Source: Erysipelothrix sp. HDW6A (lineage in GTDB: Bacteria > Bacillota_I > Bacilli_A > Erysipelotrichales > Erysipelotrichaceae). From it: 64,000 bases of DNA. Shown piece after piece: positions 7,488 to 49,849 of this stretch. The notes beneath the pieces are model-generated. The model made no database searches and was not told the origin of the DNA. It saw nothing but the letters and a program-made list of their open reading frames with translations. A program made the position numbers and the translations under genes. Numbering within the stretch: position 1 is the stretch's first letter; each line of letters begins with the position of its first letter. Location of the stretch: contig NZ_CP049859.1 in assembly GCF_011400295.1 (NCBI RefSeq), forward strand, positions 1,240,001 through 1,304,000, read 5' to 3'.

Positions 7488-8597
7488 ATGAAGATATATT
7501 TAACACGTCATGGACAAACAGACTGGAATGTTGCAAAACGTATCCAAGGGAGTACAGATATTCCTTTGAATCAAGAAGGAATAAGCCAAGCTCAAAACCT
7601 TGGGAACACACTTCTTTCAGAAAATATTAATATATCGAAGATTTATAGTAGTAATAAAAAAAGAGCAATTCGTACCGCTCAAGAAGTATCTGAAATCACA
7701 GAAATACCATATGAAGTGGTTGATGACTTACAAGAAGTCCATCTCGGTGAATGGGAAGGTCTGTCTTGGGATGAGGTACGAGAGAAAGATACCATACGTT
7801 ATGAAAAATGGTTTCAAGCTGATCGACGTACAGTAAAGTCACCTCAAGGTGAATCATATCAACAAGTCATGGAACGTGTCTTGCCAAAACTACTCAATCT
7901 TTCAAAAGATCACGATGAGGATATTTTGGTGGTTACTCATGGTGCCGTTATTATGAGTTTACTAAGTCTTCTTAACGATGCTCCTTTTGAAGAAATGACA
8001 CAATTCCGTGTTCCTAACACTAAAGTCGTAGAATTAACGAGAAGCCAAGTACAGGCTTGTTATAAGAAGTTTGTAGTTGAATCAATAAAACTTGAAAAAC
8101 CAAGTCTTCGATACTTAGACTCAATTCTTCGTTATAAAAACACTGCAGTAAATAGTGGTGAGGTTCTTCACGGGAGTTCTGGATTAGAAAACTTTGATAA
8201 TATTGAAGAATGGTGTCAGCAAACTTTCATGGACGAGTATAAAGAGACTGTTAGAGAAGGCTATGTACCTGCAACAACCTTTCTTTGTGTTCGTAAATCT
8301 GATGAACAAGTTGTCGGTATGATTAATATACGACGTGAATTGAATGATTATCTGTCAAAGTTTGGTGGACATATCGGATATTCTATTCATCAAGATGAAC
8401 GAAGAAAATCGTATGCGAAATCAATGCTTCAAAAAGCTTTAGAGTATTGCAAAGAAATTGGACTTGAACACGTTTTGATCACAGCTGATTCAAACAATAT
8501 TGCTTCCCAAAAAACTATCGAATCATGTGGTGGTGTTTTTGAGAATGAAGTTAAAGACGGAGATGGTATGCTTCGTAGATATTGGATTACATTATGA
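7488..8597 (+). CDS. Histidine phosphatase - GNAT acetyltransferase fusion
   Basis: 369 residues in one frame with a good ribosome site (TAGGAG). Residues 1-185 are a histidine phosphatase (phosphoglycerate-mutase-like) domain: TRHGQTDWN holds the R7-H8-G9 phosphohistidine motif, SSNKKRAIRTA (54-64) and LGEWEGLSWDEV (86-97) are typical, and the second catalytic His is H151 in VVTHGA. Residues about 195-369 are a GNAT N-acetyltransferase, with GGHIGYSIHQDERRKSYA (293-310) as the acetyl-CoA-binding segment. Each half is recognisable, but I cannot name a substrate for either. It sits between polC and a phosphoesterase whose start overlaps its stop (ATGA). Confidence 0.85.
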   Translation: MKIYLTRHGQTDWNVAKRIQGSTDIPLNQEGISQAQNLGNTLLSENINISKIYSSNKKRAIRTAQEVSEITEIPYEVVDDLQEVHLGEWEGLSWDEVREKDTIRYEKWFQADRRTVKSPQGESYQQVMERVLPKLLNLSKDHDEDILVVTHGAVIMSLLSLLNDAPFEEMTQFRVPNTKVVELTRSQVQACYKKFVVESIKLEKPSLRYLDSILRYKNTAVNSGEVLHGSSGLENFDNIEEWCQQTFMDEYKETVREGYVPATTFLCVRKSDEQVVGMINIRRELNDYLSKFGGHIGYSIHQDERRKSYAKSMLQKALEYCKEIGLEHVLITADSNNIASQKTIESCGGVFENEVKDGDGMLRRYWITL

Positions 8598-9572: not shown

Positions 9573-9601
9573 TTTACATTGTTCAATATCATAGGTATAA
9601 T
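9573..9601 (+). promoter_or_regulatory. Sigma-A promoter of the nucleotidyltransferase-PLP / DUF1015 unit
   Basis: TTTACA (9573-9578), 17-base spacer, TATAAT (9596-9601). It lies 37 bases upstream of the chosen ATG at 9639 and just after a terminator, so the two downstream genes form an independent unit. The near-consensus form suggests strong constitutive transcription. Confidence 0.8.
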
Positions 9602-9638
9602 TCATAATATGAACAAATGAATGGTGGAGGTTTTAATT

Positions 9639-11480
9639 ATGCAAGCAATTATTCTCGCTGCAGGTATGGGGTCACGTTTAGGAAATTTAACTGAAGTACA
9701 TCCAAAATGTATGGTTGAGGTTAGTGGTATATCCATGATTGAGCGCATGCTCCGACAATTGGATGATAAGAACTTAGAAAAAATTGTTATTGTAAATGGT
9801 TATGAGCACCAAGTATTAGAAGACTTTATTGGAAAGATTGATATTAATACTAAGATTGAATACATCACAAATCACATTTATGATGAAACCAATAATATTT
9901 ATTCGTTATTTCTTGCTAAAGACGTATTGTTAAAAGACGATACAGTATTAATTGAATCAGATTTAATAATTCAAGAAGGAATGTTAGATCAACTTTTTAA
10001 CGATACATCAAAGGCATCAGCTTTAGTTGCAAAATATGAACCTTGGATGGATGGTACGGTAGTTACTCTAAATGAGAGTGATGAAATTACAGACTTTATT
10101 GGTAAAGCAGATTTTAATTATTCGAATATAGACACTTACTATAAGACCGTTAACATCTATAAGTTCTCAAAAGAATTTAGTAGAGATTTCTATGTGCCAT
10201 ACTTAGACTCATATATGAAATCTTCTGGAGTTAACGAATACTATGAAAATGTATTGAAATTTACTGCGTTAATTCCAAACTACACAATGAAAGCAATTAT
10301 CAACAAGAACTTCGATTGGTATGAAGTAGATGATGTCCAAGATTTAGATATTGCTAATGTTATGTTCGCAAGAACAACTGAAGAAAAACTTGCCTTAATG
10401 CAAAAGCGTTTCGGAGGATACTGGCGTTATCCAAGATTGATTGATTTCTGCTATCTTGTAAATCCATTCTATCCTAATGAAAGATTGCTAGATGAAGTTA
10501 AATCAAATTTCTCTCGTTTAGTTCGTGACTATCCATCCGGCATGTCAGTAAACACCTTACTAGCGGCTAAACATTTTAAAGTTAGAGATGAGCAAATTGT
10601 AATCGGTAATGGAGCTTCAGAGCTAATTAAGTCACTCATGGAGAAATTATCAGGAAATATCGGTATCATTACTCCGACATTTGAGGAGTACCCAAATCGT
10701 TCAAATCACTTAAATGTCATTAATTTAGATAGCTCTAAAATTGGTTACGAATATGATACTGATGATATTATTACTTTCTTTGATGACAAGAATTTAGATT
10801 CACTCTTACTCATTAACCCTGATAATCCATCAGGTAACTACATTACACACAATGACGTAATTAAACTAGTTGCATGGTGTAAGAAAAACAATATCAAATT
10901 AGTGCTTGACGAATCGTTTATTGATTTTGTAGACGATGGTGATATTACATCACTTCTAAAAACAGATATCCTAGATGAATATCCAAACCTATACCTAGTG
11001 AAGAGTATTTCTAAATCATACGGTGTACCTGGCTTTAGGCTTGGCATTCTCGCAACATCTGATTTAGAAGTGATTAAGTTCATTAAAAAAGATGTTTCAA
11101 TCTGGAACATAAACTCATTTGGTGAGTACTATATGCAAATTGTCGATAAGTACAAGAAAAACTTTGAACAAGCGATGATTCAATTTGTGAACGTTCGTAA
11201 TGATTACTATAACAACTTGGTTAAAATACCTAATATGAAGGTACATCCTTCACAAGCTAACTTCATCATGATTGAACTTCTTAATGGATATACATCGAAG
11301 TTTGTAACTGAGGAATTACTTGCGAAATACAACGTATTTATTAAAGATTTATCTCCGAAAACTGGTTTTGATGGTGAGTTCATTCGTATTGCTGTAAAGA
11401 CTCCTGAAGAGAATCAATCATTACTTGACGGCTTGGATACCATTATGAGAGGACCAATTCATGAAACTTCAAGCAATTAG
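9639..11480 (+). CDS. LicC-like nucleotidyltransferase fused to a CobD/HisC-like PLP enzyme
   Basis: 613 residues. The ATG at 9639 has GGTGGAGG at the right distance, and gives the canonical nucleotidyltransferase start MQAIILAAGMGSRLG; an ATG 18 bases upstream lacks such a site. Residues 1-245 resemble choline/ethanolamine-phosphate cytidylyltransferases (LicC type): LAAGMGSRLG (6-15), PKCMVEV, the phrase YDETNNIYSLFLAKD (81-95) and LIESD (104-108). Residues about 250-613 are a fold-type I PLP enzyme of the HisC/CobD class: NPDNPSG (393-399), DESFIDF (424-430), and SISKSYGVPGFRLG with PLP lysine K459. DESFIDF and GVPGFRLG are closest to CobD, the threonine-phosphate decarboxylase. Its stop overlaps the DUF1015 gene by 20 bases. 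I infer synthesis of a CDP-activated amino-alcohol phosphate; an aminotransferase role as in PntC-type fusions is the main alternative. Confidence 0.85.
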   Translation: MQAIILAAGMGSRLGNLTEVHPKCMVEVSGISMIERMLRQLDDKNLEKIVIVNGYEHQVLEDFIGKIDINTKIEYITNHIYDETNNIYSLFLAKDVLLKDDTVLIESDLIIQEGMLDQLFNDTSKASALVAKYEPWMDGTVVTLNESDEITDFIGKADFNYSNIDTYYKTVNIYKFSKEFSRDFYVPYLDSYMKSSGVNEYYENVLKFTALIPNYTMKAIINKNFDWYEVDDVQDLDIANVMFARTTEEKLALMQKRFGGYWRYPRLIDFCYLVNPFYPNERLLDEVKSNFSRLVRDYPSGMSVNTLLAAKHFKVRDEQIVIGNGASELIKSLMEKLSGNIGIITPTFEEYPNRSNHLNVINLDSSKIGYEYDTDDIITFFDDKNLDSLLLINPDNPSGNYITHNDVIKLVAWCKKNNIKLVLDESFIDFVDDGDITSLLKTDILDEYPNLYLVKSISKSYGVPGFRLGILATSDLEVIKFIKKDVSIWNINSFGEYYMQIVDKYKKNFEQAMIQFVNVRNDYYNNLVKIPNMKVHPSQANFIMIELLNGYTSKFVTEELLAKYNVFIKDLSPKTGFDGEFIRIAVKTPEENQSLLDGLDTIMRGPIHETSSN

Positions 11481-12501
11481 TGATAGTTATGTAAACTTAA
11501 GTGGGGAAGTATACGATCCCGACTTTATCAACCTGGCTAATATAGTTGATGGAAAGATTGCTTTTGACAAACGTACTCGATTTTTGAATGATGAACTAAA
11601 AAATAAGTTAAACAGTCAACAATTGGATCAGTTTGAGAATGCTGTTTATATTGTAGAGCACAAAGGTAAGTACTGTCTGATATGTGATATTGATTTGGAT
11701 GATTACAGAGAAGGGAAGTTGATTACTCACGAACTTGTGCTTCCAGACACCATTCAGGGGATGTTGAGTAATCTTCAAGTATACAATGCTGAAACAGCAC
11801 CAACGTTCTTGATAAGTGCAGACACTCTTGATTTGCATCAATTCGTTAGTAATCTTCCGCATCATGAAATCACTATTCAAGATATTAATATATTCGTATT
11901 TACGAATGAAGTGGCTTCAAAACTACTGGAATCTCTTGAATCAATCCGAACACTCATTGTTGGAGATGGACATCACCGCTTGTATACGAGCTCATTATTC
12001 AACCGTAAGCCAACGATCATGACCTGTATCATGAACATTGATGATGTGACCATTAACAGTATTGATCGTATTATCCATGATATTCAAATAGAGGACTTTC
12101 AAAAAGCTAAAGCATTTATTGATAAGCAGTTTAAAGTAACTGAAACTAAATTTCCTTTATCAAAAGGAAGCGTGTGTATCAGTTATAGGAAACAAAGTTT
12201 CGTGGTTAATTTAATTGATTTAGAATCTGATGCATTCTGGAATAATGATGTCTACCGCTTGAACACTCAGATTTTATCTCAAGCTTTTGGAATCTATGAC
12301 ACAAGTCAACTTGATTACTTTGTCAATGAAAAGCAGTGTTTGGATTGTATCAATAAAGATGAGAACTCAGTTCGAATACAGCTTGCACCAATTTCTAAGG
12401 ATGAGGTATTATTTGTATCCAAGAAAAAAGCAATCATGCCACCGAAGTCTACGGCTTTTGGGCCGAAGTTTCCATCGTTTTTAATCTTTAAGAAATATTA
12501 A
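11461..12501 (+). CDS. DUF1015 family protein (candidate free-serine kinase)
   Basis: 346 residues, slightly shorter than the ~400 usual for the family. The DUF1015 marks are the THE motif (89-91), GDGHHR (168-173) and the C-terminal MPPKSTAFGPKFPS. The GDGHHR motif recalls the DGHTR-type motif of ParB/SerK-fold proteins, among which SerK and SbnI phosphorylate free L-serine, and DUF1015 genes often neighbour serA/serC. Kinase function here is therefore inference. The start at 11461 lies inside the end of the upstream fusion gene and has a GAGAGGA site, so translation is coupled. If it supplies O-phosphoserine, the CobD-like domain upstream could decarboxylate it to phosphoethanolamine. Confidence 0.8.
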   Translation: MKLQAISDSYVNLSGEVYDPDFINLANIVDGKIAFDKRTRFLNDELKNKLNSQQLDQFENAVYIVEHKGKYCLICDIDLDDYREGKLITHELVLPDTIQGMLSNLQVYNAETAPTFLISADTLDLHQFVSNLPHHEITIQDINIFVFTNEVASKLLESLESIRTLIVGDGHHRLYTSSLFNRKPTIMTCIMNIDDVTINSIDRIIHDIQIEDFQKAKAFIDKQFKVTETKFPLSKGSVCISYRKQSFVVNLIDLESDAFWNNDVYRLNTQILSQAFGIYDTSQLDYFVNEKQCLDCINKDENSVRIQLAPISKDEVLFVSKKKAIMPPKSTAFGPKFPSFLIFKKY

Positions 12502-12721
12502 TCATTATTCCTACTAGAATCATTGATTACAAGAATACGATAACTAAATGTATCGATTAATTTGTGTCAACAATACTACAAGGTTGTAAAAGAGCTTTAT
12601 ATACAGAGTATAGTAGTGGTAAGCGACTTGCAATTGGTATAATAATGCTATATAATTTAATCATACTTTGAAACAAGGGAGTGGCTCGCCACTCCTTATA
12701 TTATTGTCTTAAGGAGAAAAA
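12502..12721 (+). promoter_or_regulatory. Promoter and leader of the rimP-nusA-infB operon
   Basis: TTGCAA (12628-12633), 17-base spacer, TATAAT (12651-12656). The leader contains a strong hairpin: GGAGTGG (12678-12684) pairs with CCACTCC (12689-12695) around CTCG. No T run follows it, so it is not an ordinary terminator. It ends about 20 bases before the AAGGAGA ribosome site of rimP. Apart from these I see no feature in this 220-base gap. Confidence 0.75.
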
Positions 12722-34296: not shown

Positions 34297-35805
34297 TTAA
34301 CCTCTACTTCTCTTGAAGTTAGCGATTAATTCAGTAACAACATTTACTTTAAGAATGTAAATTGATACGAAGTATACTACAACTGCTGCCATAATTGCCC
34401 CTAGAAGGCTCACTGTAGCTGAAACAACGGTTGATGCACCCGTGTATATTGCAAGAACTGCAACCCCCATGATGAGTGCAGAAATGACGATTTTAGATAT
34501 CTCTTTGCTTAGAGCACGAACATCTAAGTTATTGAACAATTTAATTGATGCAATGAATATTGCAATGACTCCAACTGTAGCTGAGATGGCCATAGAAAGC
34601 GTAATACCTTGTAGACCGATAAGTCTACTTAGTACTTGTCCTAGAATAATTTGTAGTGTAATGTTACCAACTGAAATAATCATTGGTGTACGTGTGTTTT
34701 GGAATGAATAGAATACTTTAGCAATTAAACCATAAAGAGAATAGCTAACAAGTCCGAGGCTGTATGTACGGAATACATTCGTAAGAACAGCAGCTTCATC
34801 AGCTCCAAACTCCCCTCTCATGTAAACAAACTCTACAATTGGTTGAGCCAAGAGTGTCATACCAACCATACATGGAACAATAAAGAGTAGAAGCGATGAC
34901 ATAGCATTTTGGTACTCATGGCTTGCCTTTTCATGATCATTATTTGCCACAGCACTTGCGAGTGTTGGATACATAACGGATACGATAGCCAAACCGAATA
35001 CTCCTTCAATGAGACCACCAATCTTTGTAGCATAACCAATATGTGAGATACCACCCTCAATACCAGAAGCAAGAGCCTGGTTAACAAGACCACCAATACT
35101 AGAAGTTGCAGATCCAATAATTAGTGGAACTGCTAGAAGAAGCATTGTTTGAAGATGTTTATCTTTAAAATTAATATAGAATTTAAGTTTGAATCCTTTT
35201 CTATAAGCAAACCATAAAATAAGAATAGCTTGCGTTGCATATGCAAGTAGAATTCCATAAGGAAGAATATTTGCACCAACAGATTTTGAAATCACAATAA
35301 AGGATATCAAAATTAAATTCATTGGAAAAGCAAGTAATAAAGGAACAATAAATGCTTGACGAATTTGTAAGAAACCAGTCATGATTTGAATAATACATGT
35401 AAATATTAGTGTGAAAATCGCCACTTTTACAAATGGTAATAAGTATACTAGCGCTGCTTCTGAAGCATGAGGTACAAGCATTGCCAAGAATTGCTCAGTA
35501 AAGATGAATACTAAAACACTGACAACGATTGCAATTAATAACATTACGTTTTGAACGTTATTCGCAAACTTTATGGACTCTTCTTTACCGTCTTCTTTTT
35601 CTATACGTGTAAACATTGGAATAAATCCAGTTACGAATGCAGCAACAATTACTGAAAACAGTGTTCCTGGTAAGTTATAAGCATAAATAAATCCGTCAGT
35701 AATTACCCCAGCACCATAAGTATTTGATAGTACTATCTCTCTAACAAATCCAAACAGTTTAGAAAAAACTGATAAAAGCATCATAATAATTGTAATACGT
35801 TTCAT
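34297..35805 (-). CDS. murJ: MurJ/MviN family lipid-linked oligosaccharide flippase
   Basis: 502 residues with about 14 hydrophobic segments. The N-terminal KLFGFVREIVLSNTYGAG and TDGFIYAYNLPG segments are typical of MviN/MurJ. It is the last gene of the polysaccharide operon, where a Wzx-type flippase is expected and none other is present. It could flip lipid II (MurJ), the polysaccharide repeat unit, or both; sequence alone does not decide. TTGGAGGATCT precedes the start. Confidence 0.85.
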   Translation of the reverse strand: MKRITIIMMLLSVFSKLFGFVREIVLSNTYGAGVITDGFIYAYNLPGTLFSVIVAAFVTGFIPMFTRIEKEDGKEESIKFANNVQNVMLLIAIVVSVLVFIFTEQFLAMLVPHASEAALVYLLPFVKVAIFTLIFTCIIQIMTGFLQIRQAFIVPLLLAFPMNLILISFIVISKSVGANILPYGILLAYATQAILILWFAYRKGFKLKFYINFKDKHLQTMLLLAVPLIIGSATSSIGGLVNQALASGIEGGISHIGYATKIGGLIEGVFGLAIVSVMYPTLASAVANNDHEKASHEYQNAMSSLLLFIVPCMVGMTLLAQPIVEFVYMRGEFGADEAAVLTNVFRTYSLGLVSYSLYGLIAKVFYSFQNTRTPMIISVGNITLQIILGQVLSRLIGLQGITLSMAISATVGVIAIFIASIKLFNNLDVRALSKEISKIVISALIMGVAVLAIYTGASTVVSATVSLLGAIMAAVVVYFVSIYILKVNVVTELIANFKRSRG

Positions 35806-35824
35806 AGATCCTCCAATCGAAGAG

Positions 35825-36958
35825 TTATGCTAGTAAATCTTTCCATAACTCCGAAACCTTATCTTGACTGTATATATCTGCCTTATTTAAGGCGTTTAAA
35901 CTCATTGATTTAAGTAATTCAGGATTCTCCAGTAACTCATCAAGTTTATGAGCAAATTGAGTAATATCATTGTCAGCTACTAAGTAACCATCGATTCCAT
36001 CACTAATGATTGCCTCCGGTCCTACTCTTACATCAAATGCAATTGTAGGGGTGCCTTGACTCATTGATTCTAAAAGAACCATTGGAAATCCTTCGGATAT
36101 GGATGTCATAACATAAACAAGAGATTGTGACATTTCATCCAATGTATTATTATGAGCTAAAAATCCTGTAAAGACAACACTATTTTGAATATTTAGTTCT
36201 TTTACTAATACTTCAAAATCTTTTCTTGACTCCCCTTCACCTATTATCTTAAGTGTATAGTTGGGATTCAACTTAATAAACTCTGACCAAACATTAAGTA
36301 ATCGGTCATATCCTTTATCAGGATGGAGTCTTCCAACTGTTACAATCTGATTAATTTTCGGAAGATTTCTCGCATAAGTATCTTTATCTAAAAAGTTAGG
36401 TACACAGTGACATTTCGTATGGTGATTAGTACTTCTCATATATCCTTCAACTTCATCTTTTAGTCGAGGCGTTAATAAGAGAAAGTCATCAATATTTGTG
36501 TATCCATGTTGGAAATCATGAATCAGTTTTTCATCAAACCGGTGATCATGATGGAGTTGAGCAATTTTATTAACATGTGTATTACCATATTTTGAAAGTA
36601 AAACAGAATGTTCATTTCTCGTGGAAATAATGACTCCATCTTGAATTGTTTTGAATTCTTTAATGAGTGACTGCTTCTTTTGGTAAAGAACTTTAATTGC
36701 ATAAAAGCCATTTTTTACTATTTTAATAGGATTCTTGCTTCTAATAGCTGCCTTAAACTCTTCACGATTCGGTTTCAAATCAGTAAGATATTTAATCCTT
36801 ACTTTATTATCTATCGGATAAACTGGCTCACCTAATTGATACGTACATAATATAGTGACATCATGTCCCATTTCAATAAACATATTAGCGAGTGAAGATA
36901 TAACCTTTTCCACACCTCCATGATGTAGGTGCAAGGCAGTAATATATATATGTTTCAT
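35825..36958 (-). CDS. Glycosyltransferase family 4
   Basis: 377 residues, GT-B fold. N-terminal HLHHGGVEKVISSLANMF is the acceptor-side glycine loop; the donor-side signature is VGRLHPDKGYDRLLNVW and SEGFPMVLLESMSQGTP, an EX7E motif. Cytosolic. Donor sugar not deducible. AAAGGAGATTGT precedes the ATG. Part of the downstream half of the polysaccharide operon. Confidence 0.9.
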   Translation of the reverse strand: MKHIYITALHLHHGGVEKVISSLANMFIEMGHDVTILCTYQLGEPVYPIDNKVRIKYLTDLKPNREEFKAAIRSKNPIKIVKNGFYAIKVLYQKKQSLIKEFKTIQDGVIISTRNEHSVLLSKYGNTHVNKIAQLHHDHRFDEKLIHDFQHGYTNIDDFLLLTPRLKDEVEGYMRSTNHHTKCHCVPNFLDKDTYARNLPKINQIVTVGRLHPDKGYDRLLNVWSEFIKLNPNYTLKIIGEGESRKDFEVLVKELNIQNSVVFTGFLAHNNTLDEMSQSLVYVMTSISEGFPMVLLESMSQGTPTIAFDVRVGPEAIISDGIDGYLVADNDITQFAHKLDELLENPELLKSMSLNALNKADIYSQDKVSELWKDLLA

Positions 36959-36969
36959 ACAATCTCCTT

Positions 36970-38016
36970 TTAAAAGGCTAGTTTAGTATCTGATTCTCTT
37001 TCATAAGGGAATTCATAAAGATATTCCTCAAGTTCAGCACTGATAATTGCGATTTCTTCTTTATATTCTGGTCGATTCAAAAAAACTTGTGTATTATTAA
37101 TGGAAATCTCAGGATTAAACGACGTATTCGGACGTTTATGATCTTCGGGTTGAAGTTCTAAAAGTTCCATAATATCAGATAATGTATCATCATATTTATA
37201 GATTAAATCCTCAAAATGAATTCTAAGTATTTGATCGTTATCAAATTTAATCTCACTTTGACGCATTTTCTTATAGAAAACACAGAAGTCTTTTGGATTA
37301 GTTGGATAAGGAACCGTTTCATTCGATTTGCTATGAACATACTTATTTAACAAGTAAACGTCTCTTGGGTCTCTTTCAACTACTATCACTTTAGCGTTTG
37401 TATCAAAATAGTTCTCCAAGCGATGTAAATTAAATGGCAATAAGAGTTGGTCAAGAATTAGATTTCTTTGATCATTGCCAATCATTAAGAATAAAGAGTT
37501 TAAATACTTCTTGGCTGCAGAATAGAACTCATCTTCATTAGGAAAAGATAACCACATCTCAGGATAGAGTAATGGTTTCTTACCATTATACTTATTTAAT
37601 GTAACTTTTTTTAGAATCTTATTAAATGCAAGACGAATTCCCATTTTTAAGCTTGTGTTCTCTTGATAATACCAATATTGCTGTGTCTTCGTAAGAATAA
37701 TATCGTCCATAAAAGCCTCTGTATGCTTCAAAAAGTCTGGACCAAAAGTCTCTTTATAATGTCCTACCCACCAGTATTTCTTATCATACAACTGGGACAT
37801 TGTATGGTAATAAGTATGAAGTGCTTCATCGCTTCGTATTGCATTATTACCAATAAGAAGTTTATCTTCTAAGTCAAAAAGACCATTAGGACAGTGTAAA
37901 AAGACATATTCATGAGAACCATAATCAGCAAAATATCCATCAAATTCCGATATTAAGTCAGTTACAGCAGATGAACCTGATGACATATAACCTGTAGGTA
38001 TAAGAATGTTTTTCAT
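36970..38016 (-). CDS. Sulfotransferase-like protein
   Basis: 348 residues, cytosolic. The N-terminal motif PTGYMSSGSSAVTDLI matches the 5'-phosphosulfate-binding loop of PAPS-dependent sulfotransferases, and VIVVERDPRDVYLLNKY matches the 3'-phosphate-binding helix. The middle is not conserved with anything I recognise. It lies among glycosyltransferases, so it may modify a sugar of the surface polymer. No PAPS-synthesis gene is in the window, so another donor or a non-sulfate P-loop function is possible. Confidence 0.65.
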   Translation of the reverse strand: MKNILIPTGYMSSGSSAVTDLISEFDGYFADYGSHEYVFLHCPNGLFDLEDKLLIGNNAIRSDEALHTYYHTMSQLYDKKYWWVGHYKETFGPDFLKHTEAFMDDIILTKTQQYWYYQENTSLKMGIRLAFNKILKKVTLNKYNGKKPLLYPEMWLSFPNEDEFYSAAKKYLNSLFLMIGNDQRNLILDQLLLPFNLHRLENYFDTNAKVIVVERDPRDVYLLNKYVHSKSNETVPYPTNPKDFCVFYKKMRQSEIKFDNDQILRIHFEDLIYKYDDTLSDIMELLELQPEDHKRPNTSFNPEISINNTQVFLNRPEYKEEIAIISAELEEYLYEFPYERESDTKLAF

Positions 38017-38031
38017 ATGTACTCCTAATTT

Positions 38032-38985
38032 CTATTTGATTTTCTTTGCAATATCTAAAATAAGTTTCGATAAACTATTAAATCCTAAATAATTGAGTTT
38101 AGCTACCAATATTCTCTTTGAAGGTATATTGAAATCTGATTTTGCCTTATTTATGTTTACTTGATTTGACTTGGCATAATCTCTGAATTTACGAATAACG
38201 TTATTTTTTTCTTTGTTATTATGGAGTGTAATTCTATTGATTGTTGTAATAAGCACATGATCAACAATAAAATAGTTATGAACATAGGCTAAATCATTCC
38301 ATAAATTTTTAGAAATTAAGAAATCCTTCAAATCATCAAGAACAGTAATCATGTCTAAATTCTTTTCTGAGTTTTCATTATTCATTATTGAGACTTCACG
38401 ATTATGACAGTGATACATCCCACGATGAATTGTACCTATTTTTTCGGTTTGGAAAAGCAATTTTGTAGTAAAAGAAAAATCTTCATACCAGAGTCCTAAT
38501 GGGAATCGGCTATCACCTACAAATTCTGCACGGAACATTTTATTACAAGCTGACGGAGTAACTGTGTACTTGCTTTCAAATGTTGATGATTGATGATATA
38601 TTTCATGATCAACAAAATGGTCAACCATATCACAAATCACAATGTCTTGATTGTTTTCTTCTGCTTCATTGTACATTACTTCATACATATCTAAATCGAC
38701 CCAGTCATCACTATCGACAAATGCGTAGTACTTACCTTGTGCAAGTTTTAGCGCATTGTTTCGAGCTGCTGATAGTCCTTGATTTTCTTGGTTGATAACC
38801 TTTATTAAATCAGGATAATTTTGAGCATACTTATTGATAATATCAGGTGAATGATCTGTAGAACCGTCATTAGTTATTATTACTTCATAATTATCAAGAG
38901 TTTGATTTACAATTGAATCAAGACATTTAATTAAATAATCACCAGTGTTATATACTGGGACAACTATACTAACTTTTACCATCAT
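38032..38985 (-). CDS. Glycosyltransferase family 2
   Basis: 317 residues from the ATG at 38985 (a second ATG follows immediately at 38982); the site AAAGTAGGTAAC lies just upstream. GT-A motifs: VSIVVPVYNTGDYL, ITNDGSTDHSPDI, GLSAARNNALKLAQG and the DXD-type FVDSDDW, then WYEDFSFT as the acceptor-side element. Donor unknown. Closely similar in plan to the GT2 at 40507-41478, suggesting duplication. Confidence 0.9.
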   Translation of the reverse strand: MMVKVSIVVPVYNTGDYLIKCLDSIVNQTLDNYEVIITNDGSTDHSPDIINKYAQNYPDLIKVINQENQGLSAARNNALKLAQGKYYAFVDSDDWVDLDMYEVMYNEAEENNQDIVICDMVDHFVDHEIYHQSSTFESKYTVTPSACNKMFRAEFVGDSRFPLGLWYEDFSFTTKLLFQTEKIGTIHRGMYHCHNREVSIMNNENSEKNLDMITVLDDLKDFLISKNLWNDLAYVHNYFIVDHVLITTINRITLHNNKEKNNVIRKFRDYAKSNQVNINKAKSDFNIPSKRILVAKLNYLGFNSLSKLILDIAKKIK

Positions 38986-38986
38986 G

Positions 38987-40498
38987 TTACCTACTTTCTG
39001 GAATTCTTCTTTTTGCATTCTTTTGTTTCATTTCTTTAAATGAGAATGTACTTATTGTGATTAAACTTAATATATAGGAAATATAGAAAAGCACGTTGGG
39101 ACGTTTTAATACATTACCTGAAAATTGAGCCGCCCCCAGAATTAATACTAAGGCTACTAAGTAAATCCCAAGATTTTCGTTGAAACGATTTTCTTTAACA
39201 AAGAAGTAGTTCCCTATTCCACGAATTAATATATAAATAAACAATGAAATATAAATCGCAAAACCAATGTAACCGTAAGAATAGAATATACCATGTAGAT
39301 CATTTTCTAAATCATAGTTAGTACCACCAATTGTATAAGCTGCTTGTTCAAAACCAAAGAGATGTTGTGCTGTACTCGACTGATCATAAACTAAAGAAAC
39401 GGCAACTAACTTTGAATTACGGTTATTAATAAGTGAATCTGCATTGAGACTGTAGTTGTATTTTTCTGCAACCTTTTCAATTCCGAATTGTTCTACTAAA
39501 TCCTTGGTATATAGACTATAAACTTTTGTATATAAGTCAACATTCTCTAAGAAGTAATCCTTACCGGTTAGATTTGATTCAGGTTTTCCAGGGTCTGGTT
39601 TTGCAACCTCAGTTTCAATATCATTAATCTCATTTTGCCACTCATCAAATGCAATATTTGTATAGTATGTATTAATATGCATTGGTGAGTAATCTTTACA
39701 TACGTAAACAATCCCTAAACTAAGGACAACTAAACCGAGTTTTAACCAGTGTTTATTTTTGGATAACAGAGTAATGACTATTAATGCAGCTCCAATAAGG
39801 AATATTGAATAGAATGTAAGTTTTGTTCCAAAGAAGAATAAACTCGCAATGCTTAAAGCAATAAGCACTATTGAAATAATGATGTTTTTTGCTTTAATGG
39901 AAACTAATAAGGTAATACTTGCGATAACACAAATAATTACACTTTGAGAATTACCTGTAAGGAACCATCCTTTAACTCCAAATGCACCTACTGTAGCATT
40001 GTAATATGTAAATTCAGGAATACCAAGCAGGTAGCTTAGGACAATTGAAAGCGAAATAATGATTAGGTTTACAACAATTAATACATTAGCGATTTTAGTG
40101 ACTTCTTCTGAATCATAGTCTGCTTTTATTTGTCGGAAGATATCATTAAATGCTAAATAGAATAAAGGAAGTTGAACAACGCGTAAATACATCGCAATAT
40201 CAGACATAATCGATTGATATCCCGAAACATAGTTTGCAATAAAATGAGCAGTAAAAAAGACACTCAGTAATCCTATTAGGATATAATAGTGCTTTTTCTT
40301 GTCGGATATTATAAAACCATACAAGGTTACAACTGCTAGTAGAGCAAATCTTGCAATAGTTGAAATAGCGCTGACATTGGCATTCGAAGCAAAAAATGAT
40401 GCTATGTCCAACACAGGTTGTATCACCACAATTATTGATAAGAATATCAATGTTTGTCGTGAACTAAAACGTTCATTTGAATTTATATAACTTTTCAT
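38987..40498 (-). CDS. O-antigen ligase / Wzy-type polymerase family membrane protein
   Basis: 503 residues with about 11 membrane segments and one large extracellular loop (about residues 260-375) between them. The loop is followed by the HLFGFEQAAYTIGG and ENDLHGIFYSYGYIGF segment, which resembles the conserved H-containing region of WaaL/Wzy proteins. Likely polymerises or transfers repeat units outside the membrane. The locus also has an EpsG-type polymerase, so the division of labour is unclear. Confidence 0.75.
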   Translation of the reverse strand: MKSYINSNERFSSRQTLIFLSIIVVIQPVLDIASFFASNANVSAISTIARFALLAVVTLYGFIISDKKKHYYILIGLLSVFFTAHFIANYVSGYQSIMSDIAMYLRVVQLPLFYLAFNDIFRQIKADYDSEEVTKIANVLIVVNLIIISLSIVLSYLLGIPEFTYYNATVGAFGVKGWFLTGNSQSVIICVIASITLLVSIKAKNIIISIVLIALSIASLFFFGTKLTFYSIFLIGAALIVITLLSKNKHWLKLGLVVLSLGIVYVCKDYSPMHINTYYTNIAFDEWQNEINDIETEVAKPDPGKPESNLTGKDYFLENVDLYTKVYSLYTKDLVEQFGIEKVAEKYNYSLNADSLINNRNSKLVAVSLVYDQSSTAQHLFGFEQAAYTIGGTNYDLENDLHGIFYSYGYIGFAIYISLFIYILIRGIGNYFFVKENRFNENLGIYLVALVLILGAAQFSGNVLKRPNVLFYISYILSLITISTFSFKEMKQKNAKRRIPESR

Positions 40499-40506
40499 GT
40501 ATTCAC

Positions 40507-41478
40507 CTATCTAAATTTAAACATTAAAGCAATTGGACCGTACAACCTTATGTTGAGCAAATTAAAAATAAGTCGATGCTTAATGTTTAATTCTTTGACA
40601 GCATGATTTGATTTGTAATTCGGAAACATGTTTCTAAATTCTTTGTCAATCTCTTTTGCGAGTTGGCGGTTGTTTGCACGAATTAAGCGAACCATGGTTG
40701 GTATATAAAATTGATTAATTGCTAATTTTTCTATATCGTCTCTATATTCATTATAGAGATTATTTTTTTCATAAAACTTAATAAGTTCTTTAAAGACAGT
40801 AACAATATCCTTGTTCTTCTCAGAACCAAGAGACGCCATAATAGAGCCTTCTCTTTGAACATAGTATAGAGCCTGGTGATTAATTACCATTGCTCGTTGA
40901 GAATAAATATAGTATTGATGACTGTATAGTAAGTCTTCATACCATATTCCTTCTTTGAAATTTAAGTTGTTGTTAATTAAATTATCACGTAGATATAGAC
41001 GATTCCATACAGCATTGTGAATATGGAACAAATTTCGGTTTTCTTGAGGATTAATAACTTCATTAACAGGCACAGAATCTATTTTGTAGAGTTCAAGATA
41101 GTTCCCCTGCTCATCTACTTGCTCAAATCCATCAACAATATAATCCAGATTGTGTTTCTCAGCAAGATTAATCATTATCTCAAGCGTATCGTTCTTAATG
41201 TAGTCATCACTATCGATAAAATAGATGTATTTTCCTGTAGCTCTTTCAACACCACGGTTTCTACTTGCACTTAAACCACTATTTTTTTGATCGATTACTT
41301 TAAAAAGATCAGGATATTCTGACGCGAAGCGATGTACAATTTCGGCACTTCCATCTGTTGGTCCATCATTAATAACAATAATTTCAAAATCATTGATTGT
41401 CTGATTTACCAATGAAGTAAGACAACGCTCAAGGAGCGTCTCTACGTTATAAACCGGTACAATTACACTAACTTTCAT
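40507..41478 (-). CDS. Glycosyltransferase family 2
   Basis: 323 residues. VSVIVPVYNVETLLERCL, VINDGPTDGSAEIV, GLSASRNRGVERATG and FIDSDDY are GT-A donor-site motifs; IWYEDLLYS is the acceptor-side motif. The ATG follows AGAAAGGCAAGATAT and an internal promoter lies about 35 bases upstream, so this gene may head a second transcript covering the flippase-proximal half of the locus. Confidence 0.9.
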   Translation of the reverse strand: MKVSVIVPVYNVETLLERCLTSLVNQTINDFEIIVINDGPTDGSAEIVHRFASEYPDLFKVIDQKNSGLSASRNRGVERATGKYIYFIDSDDYIKNDTLEIMINLAEKHNLDYIVDGFEQVDEQGNYLELYKIDSVPVNEVINPQENRNLFHIHNAVWNRLYLRDNLINNNLNFKEGIWYEDLLYSHQYYIYSQRAMVINHQALYYVQREGSIMASLGSEKNKDIVTVFKELIKFYEKNNLYNEYRDDIEKLAINQFYIPTMVRLIRANNRQLAKEIDKEFRNMFPNYKSNHAVKELNIKHRLIFNLLNIRLYGPIALMFKFR

Positions 41479-41508
41479 AATATATCTTGCCTTTCTAAAA
41501 TCATTAAG

Positions 41509-41537
41509 ATTATATCACTTACATCTGTACATCACAA
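41509..41537 (-). promoter_or_regulatory. Internal promoter in the polysaccharide locus
   Basis: On the minus strand: TTGTGA (41537-41532), 17-base spacer ending in TGA, TATAAT (41514-41509), an extended -10. It lies in the only sizeable intergenic gap (80 bases) inside the locus, between licD and the GT2 gene. Confidence 0.6.
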
Positions 41538-41558
41538 GGTTTCAAACGATGTGAAAAA

Positions 41559-42383
41559 TCACTCAAATGTATGATTTGAGACTCTTTCATCTAAAGGTGG
41601 TAAACTTCTCCAATCACCATAAAATGAGCTTAGAATTCTATCGTATGCACGAGGAACAGGAAACTTTTCTCCTTCGAAATCCACATAAATTACATCATGA
41701 AGCTCATCTTTACTGATCTTAAGTAAATCATAGTCTTCCTCTTTGACATTGTCACATAAACAAGTAAGATACTGAAGCGATTGATCAGAATTGTAGCGAG
41801 TCATGAGTGCTTCTCTCTCCTGATACCATTTCTTAAGGAATGGATTCCAACGGTGTGTAAGAATATTAAAGAATCTAAGTGAACCACGAATTAAGCGATT
41901 CGGTAAATTTTGTTTCGGTGAAGCGTAAGTATACACAAACATTACAAACTTATTATGCAAGTTCTTAATTCTGTGAATGAATTCCGCTTTCTCTACTGGG
42001 TCATTTGGAAGTGCATCAAATGGGAAAATATCAATCCAGACTCCTTGATTAATTCCCGTATATGTTGTCGATTTTTCTTTCATTTCAATATTTTTACTTC
42101 GTATTTTCCCGAAACCATACCAGTATTGATCTTCAACGTCTCCATCAGTAAAAAACATATCGTCGGGTAGTTCGTCTTCAATGATAGTTTTTAAATAGTC
42201 ATAAGACTCTCTTGTCATAACTGTATCGACATCATCGTCCCATGGAATAAAACCTTGATGACGCATTGCACCAATTAAGGTTCCGTATGCCAAAGTATAG
42301 GTGATGTTATGTTTCTTACAAATGGTGTCAAAAGTCTTTAAAATTCGTAGTTCTTCTCTTTGAATATCTTTAATATCACTCAT
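41559..42383 (-). CDS. licD: LicD family phosphotransferase
   Basis: 274 residues. LAYGTLIGAMRHQGFIPWDDDVD is the LicD signature (read as AYGTLIGAMRH then GFIPWDDDVD), with GVWIDIFPFDALP further on. LicD enzymes move phosphocholine or a related phospho-group from a CDP donor onto surface polysaccharide; Erysipelothrix capsules are known to carry phosphorylcholine. The start overlaps the upstream GT4 stop as ATGA. The CDP donor could come from the nucleotidyltransferase-PLP gene at 9.6 kb, which is inference. No licA/licB transport-kinase genes are in the window. Confidence 0.9.
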   Translation of the reverse strand: MSDIKDIQREELRILKTFDTICKKHNITYTLAYGTLIGAMRHQGFIPWDDDVDTVMTRESYDYLKTIIEDELPDDMFFTDGDVEDQYWYGFGKIRSKNIEMKEKSTTYTGINQGVWIDIFPFDALPNDPVEKAEFIHRIKNLHNKFVMFVYTYASPKQNLPNRLIRGSLRFFNILTHRWNPFLKKWYQEREALMTRYNSDQSLQYLTCLCDNVKEEDYDLLKISKDELHDVIYVDFEGEKFPVPRAYDRILSSFYGDWRSLPPLDERVSNHTFE

Positions 42384-43558
42384 AATTTCTCTATTTCCTT
42401 AAGATAATTTTCTATCATTTTCTCTTTTGAAAACTTAAAAGAGTATTCTCGACAAGCTTCAGATGAATAACGAACAAAATCAAAATTCTGTATACTTGTT
42501 GCTAGTAAATCTATATCATTAGCTTTAACAACTAATCCAACCTCGTCCCCTACTATTTCGGGTACTGCTGTCTGATCATACACGATAACAGGAGTTCCAC
42601 ATGCTAAAGCTTCAACAGTAGTAAGACCCATCGTTTCTTCTTGACTGAGGTTTAGATAAATATCTGCATTTGAATAGTATTCCACTAATTCTGATACATT
42701 TTCCGTTCTCGTGATGCCTTTGATTGAGGATGGTAGTCCCTCACACTGTTGTTTTGATAATCCAATAAGTGTGATCTTGTAGTCCTCTGGTAGTCGCTTG
42801 CTTAATTCAATAAAATCATCCAGTCCTTTACGTTTCTCCCAAATGTTTGCAACACCTAGTAGGTTAATTTCTGTAGAGTTTGATTCATTTTTAAGTGGTC
42901 TAAAAACCTGGAGGTCAATTCCGTTATAAATTCTCTTTATTTTATAAGAATTTAAGAAAGTTTGTTCGGTTAATTGTTTTAACCAGTCTGAAGGTGTAAG
43001 AATTGTTAAGTTATTTATATTAGAAAAAGCTTCTTTTTTCCAATTGAAGTTGTATTTTTGATTTGAAAACCCCAAAGACTCTGGATACTCTCGAGTAGTA
43101 TTACACTCAACACATCCTTTATCCCAAACTTTACAACCTGAATACGAGAAGTAAGCGCTGCTTCCACTGAAAGACCAGCAATCATGTAGAGTCCATAGAA
43201 TCTTGGTCTGTGGTCGTGTCTTTAAATAGTTAAATAGCATTCTCACATTGAGGTAGTATCCATGAAGATTGTGTAAATGTATTACCTCAGGATTATACTC
43301 ATCGATTACTTTTATTAATTTCTTTGTCTCTAAACTAGAATGCAAACCGTGTCTCCCAAGAAGACGAGTCATAAGTACATGCCAGTATGTAGAAATTTTA
43401 CTTCCAAAATAGAACGTATCTTCTGAATTCTCTTGAGGATATCGGCCATACGCAACTAAAACATCGTGACCTGCTTGCTTGGATGCATTTGCAATGTCTC
43501 GAACTAACTTCCCGGTGCTTCCGTAATCTACAACTGAATTAATAAAAAGAATTTTCAT
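42380..43558 (-). CDS. Glycosyltransferase family 4
   Basis: 392 residues, GT-B fold. N-terminal DYGSTGKLVRDIANASKQAGHD; donor site with GVANIWEKRKGLDDFI and EETMGLTTVEALACGTPV (EX7E). A CX10CxxC-like cysteine cluster lies around SGCKVWDKGCVECNTT (about residues 140-155), a feature of WcaC/WbuB-type capsule transferases. ATGA overlap with the epimerase upstream and with licD downstream. Confidence 0.88.
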   Translation of the reverse strand: MKILFINSVVDYGSTGKLVRDIANASKQAGHDVLVAYGRYPQENSEDTFYFGSKISTYWHVLMTRLLGRHGLHSSLETKKLIKVIDEYNPEVIHLHNLHGYYLNVRMLFNYLKTRPQTKILWTLHDCWSFSGSSAYFSYSGCKVWDKGCVECNTTREYPESLGFSNQKYNFNWKKEAFSNINNLTILTPSDWLKQLTEQTFLNSYKIKRIYNGIDLQVFRPLKNESNSTEINLLGVANIWEKRKGLDDFIELSKRLPEDYKITLIGLSKQQCEGLPSSIKGITRTENVSELVEYYSNADIYLNLSQEETMGLTTVEALACGTPVIVYDQTAVPEIVGDEVGLVVKANDIDLLATSIQNFDFVRYSSEACREYSFKFSKEKMIENYLKEIEKL

Positions 43559-44682
43559 CGTTTTTGCCAGACTACTCTATTTATATAGTCGGTGTATGAA
43601 AGGATGATACGAAGCACTTTTTCCGAAACATTTGGCATGCTATAGTCTGAGACATGACGTAATGTAGATATTTCTTGAGTTTCAAGCACTTCTAGTCCTT
43701 GTAGCACGCGATCTTTGTGTAAGCCAACCATCATAACACTTGCCTCTTCCATTGCTTCTGGACGCTCGTGTGCCTCTCTCAGGTTTAACGCTTTAAAACC
43801 AAGTATCGATGATTCTTCAGATATAGTACCACTATCACTTAATGTAGCCTTAGAATGAAGTTGTAAGGTTACATAGTCATTGAATCCAAGTGGTTTAAGA
43901 ATTTGCACATTAGGATGGAACTCTATATTAAGTTTCTCAATCATGTTCTTTGTGCGTGGATGTGTACTTACTATTACAGGATAGTTATATTTCTCGGCAA
44001 CTGTATTAAGTGTTTCTACTAAGTTCATAAAATTTGTTCGTGAATTTATGTTCTCATCCCGGTGAGCAGAAACCACAAAATAGTGTCCCTCTTTTAAATT
44101 TAGGCGTTCCAAGATTGTATTTGCTTCAATATCTTCTTTTCGGGATTGAAGAACTTCATACATTGGACTTCCTGTTTTTATGATTCTATCTGCAGATAAG
44201 CCTTCACGTAAAAGGTATTCACGAGCAATATCACTGTATGTTAGGTTAATATCTGAAATATGGTCTACTATTTTACGATTAGTTTCTTCAGGGACACGTT
44301 GATCAAAACAACGATTCCCTGCTTCCATATGGAAAATAGGAATTTGAAGACGCTTGGCTGCAATAGCACATAGACAGCTGTTTGTATCTCCTAGTACTAG
44401 GAATGCATCAGGTTTTACAGACTCTAGTATTGGTTCAATTTTAACAAGAATATTACCAATTGTTCCAATAGGCTGTCCTGTAGCAGTATCAAGGAAGTAA
44501 TCAGGTTTCTTAATTTTGAAATCATTAAAGAAAACCTCGTTAAGCTCATAGTCATAATTTTGACCTGTATGAACAAGAACATGTTCAATAGCGCTTGATG
44601 ACTCTAAACGGTTGATAACAGCTGAAAGTCGAATAATTTCTGGTCGTGTACCGACCACGGTCATAACTTTTAATTTTTTCAT
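43555..44682 (-). CDS. capG: UDP-N-acetyl-L-talosamine/GlcNAc 2-epimerase, CapG/FnlC type
   Basis: 375 residues from the ATG at 44682, preceded by ATGGAGGTTTAAA. Non-hydrolysing epimerase fold: VMTVVGTRPEIIRLSAV, HTGQNYDYELNEVFF, VLGDTNSCLCAI, HMEAGNRCFDQRVPEETNR and SDSGTISEESS. The FDQRVPEE form and position after capE-capF indicate the last step to UDP-N-acetyl-L-fucosamine, distinct from the WecB-type epimerase at 49850. Confidence 0.88.
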   Translation of the reverse strand: MKKLKVMTVVGTRPEIIRLSAVINRLESSSAIEHVLVHTGQNYDYELNEVFFNDFKIKKPDYFLDTATGQPIGTIGNILVKIEPILESVKPDAFLVLGDTNSCLCAIAAKRLQIPIFHMEAGNRCFDQRVPEETNRKIVDHISDINLTYSDIAREYLLREGLSADRIIKTGSPMYEVLQSRKEDIEANTILERLNLKEGHYFVVSAHRDENINSRTNFMNLVETLNTVAEKYNYPVIVSTHPRTKNMIEKLNIEFHPNVQILKPLGFNDYVTLQLHSKATLSDSGTISEESSILGFKALNLREAHERPEAMEEASVMMVGLHKDRVLQGLEVLETQEISTLRHVSDYSMPNVSEKVLRIILSYTDYINRVVWQKR

Positions 44683-44683
44683 T

Positions 44684-45793
44684 TTAAACCTCCATGGTGT
44701 ATGTATCTGGATTATTTTGATCAAATATCTCATTGACCCAAATAATTGTTATTAAGTCTTCGTTACTCTCATTGACAATAGAATGAGTATAACCTGCAGG
44801 AATATCAATAACATTAAGTTCATCTCCTGATACTTTATAGGAATATACAGTATCAGAGTCAATTTCTCTTAATTTAATGACTCCCTCTCCCCTTACTACA
44901 AGAAACTTCTCATGTTTAGTATGATGCCAATGGTTTCCTTTAGTAATACCAGGCTTTGATACATTAATACTTACTTGACCTCTGTCACTTGATTTAAGAA
45001 ACTCAGTAAAACTGCCACGCTCATCGATGTGACTTACTAAACTGTATGAAAAATCTTTAGGATCCAAATAACTCAAATATGTACTGTAAAGTTTCTTAAT
45101 GAGTTCGTCTCCCAGGTTTGGAATCACTAATGAGCTTCGACCTTCCTTAAATGATTGAAGAGTTTGCGCAATAGAGCCAAGTTTAGTCTCATAGTTCTTT
45201 GAAACAGAACAGTAGTACGTATCGATTCGATTTGGACTACCCTTTAAAGTACTAATCATCTCTGTTACGACATCATCAATATATTCAAGTGTAATTTCAG
45301 TATCTGGATTATTAATACTTATTGGAATATTTCTACTGATGTTATAGCACCAAGTGGCAATCACTGAATTGTAGTTTGGAGTAGACCATTTTCCAAAAAG
45401 ATTATGGAAACGATAAATAAACACTTCAGCTCCAGAACTGATTGAATAGTCGATAATTGTTTGTTCAGCGAGCAATTTACTCTTACCATATGGGTTGTCT
45501 AAAGATGCCTGAATACTGCTTGATAGCAATATTGGCGTCTTACGATTGAATGTTAGTAATTGTTTGCATAAGTAATCTGTAAAATCAGAATTGCCTCTAT
45601 AGTAGTCTTCAACATTTTCTGGACGATTCACTCCTGCAAGATGAATAATGAAATCAGATTCCTTGAGATAGTTATCAAGTTCTTCTAATGAATCATCTTT
45701 ATTGTAAGCAAAAACTTCATAACCGTGATTATGAAGTGAGCTTGTTACGTTCTTACCAACAAAACCAGCAGCACCTGTAACTAATATTTTCAT
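44684..45793 (-). CDS. capF: CapF/FnlB bifunctional reductase with C-terminal cupin
   Basis: 369 residues. SDR domain (1-245) with TGAAGFVGKNV and NPYGKSKLLAEQ (YxxxK); cupin domain (about 255-369) with the metal ligands in HWHHTKHEKFLVVRGEG. CapF epimerises at C3 and reduces the 4-keto sugar from CapE to UDP-2-acetamido-2,6-dideoxy-L-talose. Starts by ATGA overlap after capE. Confidence 0.92.
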   Translation of the reverse strand: MKILVTGAAGFVGKNVTSSLHNHGYEVFAYNKDDSLEELDNYLKESDFIIHLAGVNRPENVEDYYRGNSDFTDYLCKQLLTFNRKTPILLSSSIQASLDNPYGKSKLLAEQTIIDYSISSGAEVFIYRFHNLFGKWSTPNYNSVIATWCYNISRNIPISINNPDTEITLEYIDDVVTEMISTLKGSPNRIDTYYCSVSKNYETKLGSIAQTLQSFKEGRSSLVIPNLGDELIKKLYSTYLSYLDPKDFSYSLVSHIDERGSFTEFLKSSDRGQVSINVSKPGITKGNHWHHTKHEKFLVVRGEGVIKLREIDSDTVYSYKVSGDELNVIDIPAGYTHSIVNESNEDLITIIWVNEIFDQNNPDTYTMEV

Positions 45794-46812
45794 TGTATAA
45801 AATCCTTTATTTCATCCTGAATTTCATAGAGTGTCTGCAATTTTTCGATTATTTCTGCTTTATTAAGACGGTGTGTATTATGGGAGTTATATTCTTCTTC
45901 GGTTACGAGTTCTTCTCCATCAATGAAATACTTATCATAATTTAAGTCGCGTTGGTCCATAGGAATACGATAGTAATTTCCTAAATCAACTGATTTTACG
46001 TATTCTTCTTTTGTTAAGAGCGTTTCATAGATTTTTTCACCATGACGTGTACCGATAATTCGAGTACCTACATTAGATTGAGTTAATTCAAGAATTGCTT
46101 CCGCTAAATCTGAAATTGTACTTGCAGGTGACTTTTGAACAAATAAATCTCCTGGTTTTCCATTGTTAAATGCAAATAGTACTAAATCAACTGCTTCATC
46201 AAGGGACATTAAAAAACGTGTCATATTGGGATTAGTTAAGGTTAGTTGTTTACCTGAACGTATTTGGTCTAAAAACAATGGGATTACTGAGCCGCGAGAA
46301 GCCATAACGTTACCATAACGAGTACCACATATTACTGTGCCTGTTTCTTGTGCTAAACGGGCTTTAGCAATAAATGTCTTTTCCATCATTGCTTTTGATA
46401 TTCCCATTGCATTGATAGGATAAGCAGCTTTGTCAGTTGATAGACAGACTACTTTCTTTACATGATTTTCTATAGCTACTTCGAGTACATTGTCAGTTCC
46501 AAGGACATTGGTTTTAACTGCTTCAATTGGGAAAAATTCGCATGAAGGAACCTGTTTTAAAGCTGCTGCATGGAATAAAAAGTCTACACCTCTCATAGCA
46601 TGGATAAGTGATGATTTATCACGTACGTCACCAATATAGAACTTTAAGCGATCATCATGAAATTCTTTACGCATATCATCCTGTTTTTTCTCATCTCTTG
46701 AAAGAATTCTAAGTTCTTTTATCTGATTGTCTTTAAGTAGTCGACGTGCAACTGCATGACCAAATGAACCAGTTCCTCCTGTAATTAAAACGATGCTATT
46801 TTTTATTTCCAT
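45790..46812 (-). CDS. capE: CapE/FnlA UDP-GlcNAc 4,6-dehydratase/5-epimerase
   Basis: 340 residues from the ATG at 46812, preceded by TGGAGGCAATCAAAT. Extended SDR: LITGGTGSFGHAVARRLL, CLSTDKAAYPINAMGISKAM with the MxxxK catalytic element of the soluble dehydratases, and TRYGNVMASRGSVIPLF. First committed step to UDP-L-FucNAc. Overlaps the WbuB-like gene by 17 bases. Confidence 0.93.
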   Translation of the reverse strand: MEIKNSIVLITGGTGSFGHAVARRLLKDNQIKELRILSRDEKKQDDMRKEFHDDRLKFYIGDVRDKSSLIHAMRGVDFLFHAAALKQVPSCEFFPIEAVKTNVLGTDNVLEVAIENHVKKVVCLSTDKAAYPINAMGISKAMMEKTFIAKARLAQETGTVICGTRYGNVMASRGSVIPLFLDQIRSGKQLTLTNPNMTRFLMSLDEAVDLVLFAFNNGKPGDLFVQKSPASTISDLAEAILELTQSNVGTRIIGTRHGEKIYETLLTKEEYVKSVDLGNYYRIPMDQRDLNYDKYFIDGEELVTEEEYNSHNTHRLNKAEIIEKLQTLYEIQDEIKDFIQ

Positions 46813-48013: not shown

Positions 48014-48028
48014 AAGTTCACCAGCCTT

Positions 48029-49834: not shown

Positions 49835-49849
49835 AATATCCCCTTTTTA

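Follow-up and report, generated by a model that had tools for sequence, protein, structure and literature searches.

A two-gene unit of Erysipelothrix probably encodes everything needed to turn free serine into CDP-ethanolamine, which a LicD-family enzyme would then use. The four activities, the order in which they act and the acceptor are inferred; the reading of the fusion protein taken alone is more certain than that of the whole route. The domains and their fusion, the gene overlap, the kinship in fold and motifs, the co-occurrence and the operon structure are established directly, and searches found no clear SerC, PEP mutase or second PF01066 enzyme. In the proposed route, a DUF1015 protein would convert free L-serine into O-phosphoserine, with an unspecified phosphate donor, and the PLP domain of the fusion protein would decarboxylate phosphoserine to phosphoethanolamine. 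The fused LicC-type domain would combine phosphoethanolamine with CTP into CDP-ethanolamine, and the LicD-family enzyme would move phosphoethanolamine to a glycolipid or a surface polysaccharide. The first three steps (serine to phosphoserine, phosphoethanolamine and CDP-ethanolamine) had been put forward in the original prediction, which our analysis mostly supports while the enzyme activities remain inferred.

Most bacteria make the ethanolamine head group through a membrane lipid. The proposed route would reach the same end point, CDP-ethanolamine, as the eukaryotic Kennedy pathway, and an ethanolamine head group as does the bacterial PssA/Psd route, but would begin at free serine, with neither ethanolamine uptake nor phosphatidylserine. 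A relative is known for each step; the assembly of a soluble route from two genes, with DUF1015 placed within it, did not turn up in our literature search. If the route is real, many gut anaerobes and some very small genomes reading TGA as Trp are able to display ethanolamine without importing it and without phosphatidylserine; zwitterionic groups of this kind on the surface interact with the immune system of mammals (PMC11982090). DUF1015, so far a Pfam family without an assigned function, would gain one, as would hundreds of fusion proteins that are only distant matches to the name-giving models.

Layout and surroundings of the two-gene unit

The window (the whole stretch of 64,000 nucleotides analysed) comes from an Erysipelothrix genome of 2.04 Mb. 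The following features are used below:

9573..9601, + strand: promoter-like site TTTACA-17-TATAAT, 11/12 match (consensus match only)
9639..11480, + strand: fusion gene, cytidylyltransferase plus PLP decarboxylase-like domain, 613 aa (ATG suitably spaced to GGAGG)
9639..10410, + strand: LicC/PntC-type cytidylyltransferase domain, aa 1-257, ESDLI motif (Pfam, PDB match, alignment)
10413..11477, + strand: PLP domain, aa 259-613, of the SMUL_1544-like serine-phosphate decarboxylase lineage, PLP lysine K459 in KSISK (PDB match, tree)
11461..12501, + strand: DUF1015 protein of 346 aa, short and divergent, predicted to be a free serine kinase (Pfam, motifs, fold model)
12676..12697, + strand: terminator-like hairpin 3' of DUF1015, ending the two-gene unit (strong hairpin)
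41559..42383, - strand: LicD-family phosphotransferase in a surface-polysaccharide cluster, candidate user of CDP-ethanolamine (Pfam; link to the unit inferred)

Both open reading frames are present in the window, the fusion gene at 9639-11480 being followed by DUF1015 at 11461-12501. The overlap of 20 bases reported earlier is exact, since the DUF1015 ATG stands at 11461 and the fusion stop at 11480. The most likely start of the fusion is 9639 (MQAIILAAG, with GGAGG 5' of the ATG) rather than 9621, and position 9573, initially given as the start of the unit, is the first base of the promoter match. Given the promoter-like site on the 5' side and the terminator-like hairpin on the 3' side, the pair has the look of a two-gene operon; shuffled sequences yield promoter matches at least as often as this region does.

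The unit is flanked by housekeeping-type genes (PolC-like upstream, rimP- and nusA-like downstream) and its GC content is slightly below that of neighbouring genes. Just upstream, at 7488-8597, a histidine-phosphatase domain is fused to a GNAT acetyltransferase. The fusion and DUF1015 pair is kept in five Erysipelothrix genomes with differing surroundings, E. anatis being among the congeners that carry it, and also in Inconstantimicrobium porci; this conservation argues that the pairing is not due to chance.

The fusion protein

The fusion of a LicC-like to a PLP domain is borne out by Pfam, with NTP_transferase/NTP_transf_3 above cut-off in the N-terminal domain and Aminotran_1_2 above cut-off in the same protein. 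The motifs singled out in the original prediction were correctly placed: DESFIDF and GVPGFRLG lie in the PLP domain and GDGHHR in DUF1015. The only close solved relatives of the N-terminal domain are Tde-PntC, its best PDB match, and Spn-LicC. The acidic ESD/DAD metal motif is present. Glu106, invariant in 28 proteins, aligns with Glu104 of PntC, where LicC has Asp; in PntC, two glutamates lie close to the primary amine group of its substrate, and Glu104 is one of them (PMC6697681). The second amine-contacting residue of PntC, Glu196, aligns with Tyr202, which stands beside the invariant Glu203. Spn-LicC prefers phosphocholine 2700-fold over phosphoethanolamine (PMC6697681), so that the family name does not give the substrate specificity.

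Searching the PDB with the PLP domain gave 6oux as best match (E 2e-53), ahead of Salmonella CobD (1lc5, 7e-27) and HisC (about 5e-19). The 6oux entry is entitled "Structure of SMUL_1544, a decarboxylase from Sulfurospirillum multivorans"; we take this protein to be a proven L-serine-O-phosphate decarboxylase of the norcobamide pathway. One study describes it only as putatively supplying ethanolamine phosphate (PMC4585668). In a 40-sequence tree, for which the tree tool flagged long branches, the PLP domains of the fusions and 6oux were sisters forming one group (support 100/99), with CobD, CobD-like and HisC proteins outside. N396, D424, K459 and the C-terminal R583 are invariant across 28 fusion proteins; their roles (PLP-binding residues and C-terminal R583) were assigned from family knowledge. 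The AF2 model of the fusion protein has a pLDDT of 90.8, and in the fold comparison SMUL_1544 and CobD tie at Z 39.0 each, HisC coming next. The serine-phosphate assignment therefore rests on sequence kinship and context.

The domain had been described as closest to CobD. This holds for the NCBIfam models, among which TIGR01140 (CobD) is the best match, but its 153 bits fall short of the equivalog cut-off of 290.55, and the nearest lineage is that of the serine-phosphate decarboxylase SMUL_1544, not that of threonine-phosphate decarboxylase. A HisC identity was rejected likewise (TIGR01141, 146 bits for an equivalog cut-off of 276.55). By its clear grouping, the PLP domain can be placed in the L-serine-O-phosphate decarboxylase lineage and not with HisC, decarboxylation itself being inferred. 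The reaction predicted for the domain, phosphoserine to ethanolamine phosphate, is that of SMUL_1544 and of Cj1436 of Campylobacter jejuni. They are stand-alone proteins serving cobamide synthesis or capsule amidation, whereas the Erysipelothrix domain is fused to a cytidylyltransferase.

Two other products of the fusion have to be weighed. The PLP domain shares its fold-type I family with HisC and CobD, and C. jejuni possesses a serinol-phosphate-forming enzyme, Cj1437, besides the serine-phosphate decarboxylase Cj1436 (PMC12409886). The domain might thus be an aminotransferase turning dihydroxyacetone phosphate into serinol phosphate, for CDP-serinol, or might act on phosphothreonine, for CDP-1-amino-2-propanol. 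We give this little chance of being correct: the domain clearly groups with SMUL_1544, and the fusion is associated with DUF1015/SerK and, at one locus, SerC, which are phosphoserine enzymes unneeded for serinol phosphate. As for a phosphonate route to CMP-aminoethylphosphonate, it is suggested by Tde-PntC-AEPT, in which a cytidylyltransferase that is the best PDB match of our N-terminal domain is fused to an aminotransferase of similar size. Both systems share the domain family and the fusion to a PLP enzyme, and in both a small amino-alcohol phosphate or phosphonate is activated with CTP, by inference in Erysipelothrix. However, the partner in Tde-PntC-AEPT is an AEP transaminase, whereas that of Erysipelothrix is decarboxylase-like; it belongs to another subfamily and did not group with phosphonate aminotransferases, and its genome lacks PEP mutase. 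The search for PEP mutase, which did recover two relatives having a phosphonate cluster, came up empty in the window genome, the remaining fusion-bearing Erysipelothrix genomes and the five genomes reading TGA as Trp. This absence, which like those of SerC and of a second PF01066 enzyme rests on family searches, contradicts the phosphonate route in these genomes, and we regard that route as very improbable. Production of CDP-ethanolamine from phosphoserine remains the preferred reading of the fusion.

The DUF1015 protein and the source of phosphoserine

Pfam PF06245 (DUF1015) matches the second gene with 64.2 bits, the gathering score being 25.8. The predicted model has a pLDDT of 90. Searched against the PDB with Foldseek, its top nine matches were all SerK/SbnI entries at about 1e-8 (the SerK-like Pyrococcus entry 1vk1 included), and the matches that followed were noise. 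VIA-align gave Z values of 12.2-14.0 over 206-217 residues for SerK/SbnI, far above sulfiredoxin and ParB, which have the same superfamily fold and came next (Z ≤5.8). At the sequence level, a single-sequence phmmer search against the PDB returned nothing meaningful, and SerK was reached only with the structure model, a profile search and hhalign. The profile, built from 36 DUF1015 proteins, matched only SerK-family chains in the PDB, and hhalign aligned DUF1015 with SerK at a probability of 93.6 (E 2e-7).

Seven residues (E91, D169, G170, H172, R203, P327 and K329) are invariant in the 36 DUF1015 homologues. In hhalign and HMM alignments, the D169-G170-x-H172 and P327-K329 regions are colinear with D69-G70-H71-H72-R and P220-K221-T of SerK. 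E91 lies in an H/T-E motif where SerK has H29-E30, and E30 mutants of SerK were crystallised with phosphoserine and AMP. That E91 corresponds to SerK Glu30 is an inference; hhalign, which begins at the DGHHR region, leaves the pairing unresolved, and there is no residue-level structural alignment of E91. The remark that GDGHHR recalls SerK is thus supported by both fold and motifs. SerK (the ADP-dependent free serine kinase of Thermococcus) and SbnI have the fold of DUF1015 across some 215 residues, as well as its DGHHR and P-K-S/T motifs; sequence identity is only about 15%, DUF1015 has extra N-terminal sequence, and it adjoins a decarboxylase gene whereas SerK and SbnI adjoin cysteine or siderophore genes. 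From the model and the motifs, DUF1015 is predicted to be a free serine kinase. Our literature search found nothing linking DUF1015 to a serine kinase, the DUF1015 papers recovered being unrelated. A pyrophosphate-dependent free serine kinase related to the SerK/SbnI/DUF1015 group may already have been described; such a report, if real, would lower the novelty of this part.

Phosphoserine is usually supplied by SerC (phosphoserine aminotransferase). SerC was not found in the window genome nor in two other genomes (G009, G012), and searches of the five genomes reading TGA as Trp gave only weak, partial matches. As the route needs phosphoserine and the window genome has no clear SerC, DUF1015 would be its natural source. 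In SerC-bearing genomes, canonical DUF1015 often adjoins SerC, with the fusion located elsewhere. SerC coexists with a fusion-adjacent DUF1015 in two Erysipelothrix genomes (G004, G008), so that DUF1015 is not simply a SerC substitute. A full-length DUF1015 beside serC (and serA) was also seen in many anaerobes (L061, L063, L064, G062, G065, G067, G220, G341), pointing to a possible general function in interconverting serine and phosphoserine.

These observations leave a small, though not negligible, chance that the fusion makes CDP-ethanolamine while DUF1015 acts otherwise on phosphoserine or on the product, for example by converting phosphoserine to serine, by sensing or by tailoring. Canonical DUF1015 is often part of a serC-serA-DUF1015 operon, which already provides for phosphoserine; its fold relative SbnI is annotated as a bifunctional regulator/O-phosphoserine synthase; and G004 and G008 own SerC besides the fusion-adjacent DUF1015. 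Yet in the window genome, G012 and the five TGA=Trp genomes, without a convincing SerC, the decarboxylase would have no evident source of substrate if DUF1015 were not a kinase. We retain the kinase reading.

Distribution, gene neighbours and possible users of the product

The fusion gene is widespread among gut anaerobes, with at least 500 loci in several phyla. A relative of the query is encoded by 531 candidate stretches; the best 80 are nearly all full-length fusions and come from Clostridia, Bacteroidota, Akkermansia, Coriobacteria, spirochaetes and an archaeal MAG. In a sample of the phylum, DUF1015 was present in 9/10 fusion genomes vs 35/382 others (Fisher p 1.2e-8, not corrected for kinship); among relatives, in 6/6 fusion genomes vs 13/54 without fusion; and in the named-locus sample, in all 18 of 18 fusion genomes. 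This survey also supports the predicted route. In one fusion genome (G276), neither DUF1015 nor SerC was found.

DUF1015 adjoins the fusion in at least four arrangements, drawn from three DUF1015 subfamilies, and these separate arrangements partly answer the objection of kinship. The fusion precedes a short DUF1015 in Erysipelothrix and Inconstantimicrobium; a short DUF1015 precedes the fusion in the five TGA=Trp genomes of 0.8-0.9 Mb (L182, L183, L184, L185, L189); the fusion is followed by a DUF1015 of the DGNHS subfamily at L078; and the order full-length DUF1015-LicD-fusion-opine dehydrogenase is found at L141. Locus L122 reads LicD-fusion-opine dehydrogenase-SerC, with SerC cut by the contig end. 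In G001 (L058:1-1135), only the C-terminal half of a DUF1015 is readable, downstream of a LicC-choline-kinase fusion; it is probably a decayed copy.

The LicD gene at 41.6 kb had been proposed as user of the product. The gene itself was confirmed at 41559-42383. Its support as consumer is weaker, because it lies 30 kb away in a genome that holds three LicD genes; the TGA=Trp operons give stronger support for use by LicD. LicD is the third gene after DUF1015 and the fusion in three of these five genomes, each of which has one LicD and one PF01066 enzyme, and in 25 of the best 80 loci a LicD gene is no more than four genes away from the fusion. Mf1, a LicD-family enzyme of Mycoplasma fermentans, uses CDP-ethanolamine in vitro as the donor for transferring phosphoethanolamine to a glucosyl lipid (PMC11982090). 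The surface-polysaccharide cluster of the window (34297-51689, - strand) also contains a MurJ-type flippase, an O-antigen-ligase-like protein and a sulfotransferase-family protein.

Synthesis of phosphatidylethanolamine by a CDP-alcohol phosphotransferase is disfavoured in the window organism: the PF01066 search of its genome found only one enzyme, presumably the usual PgsA, and no second.

In a broader reading, which could as well fail as hold, the fusion is the core of a widespread, modular bacterial system for soluble CDP-ethanolamine derived from serine, with exchangeable phosphoserine suppliers and tailoring enzymes, DUF1015 proteins being serine/phosphoserine interconverters throughout the family. 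The suppliers would be the SerC pathway or three kinds of DUF1015 kinase; the tailoring slot would be held by an opine dehydrogenase, an ornithine-cyclodeaminase-type reductase, a methyltransferase or a CDP-alcohol phosphotransferase; and the outcome would be mostly undescribed zwitterionic head groups for LicD-type transferases.

An octopine-dehydrogenase-family gene adjoins the fusion in 23 of the best 80 loci (L093, L069, L141 and about 20 others), and in 13 that place is taken by an ornithine-cyclodeaminase/mu-crystallin gene. The occupation of one slot by two unrelated reductase families suggests N-carboxyalkyl derivatives of phosphoethanolamine; a literature search on carboxyethylamino-ethyl phosphate polysaccharides yielded nothing useful. 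At three distant fusion loci (L131, L094, L099), the gene immediately after the fusion encodes a PssA-like CDP-alcohol phosphotransferase, and a direct step from CDP-ethanolamine to lipid is possible there.
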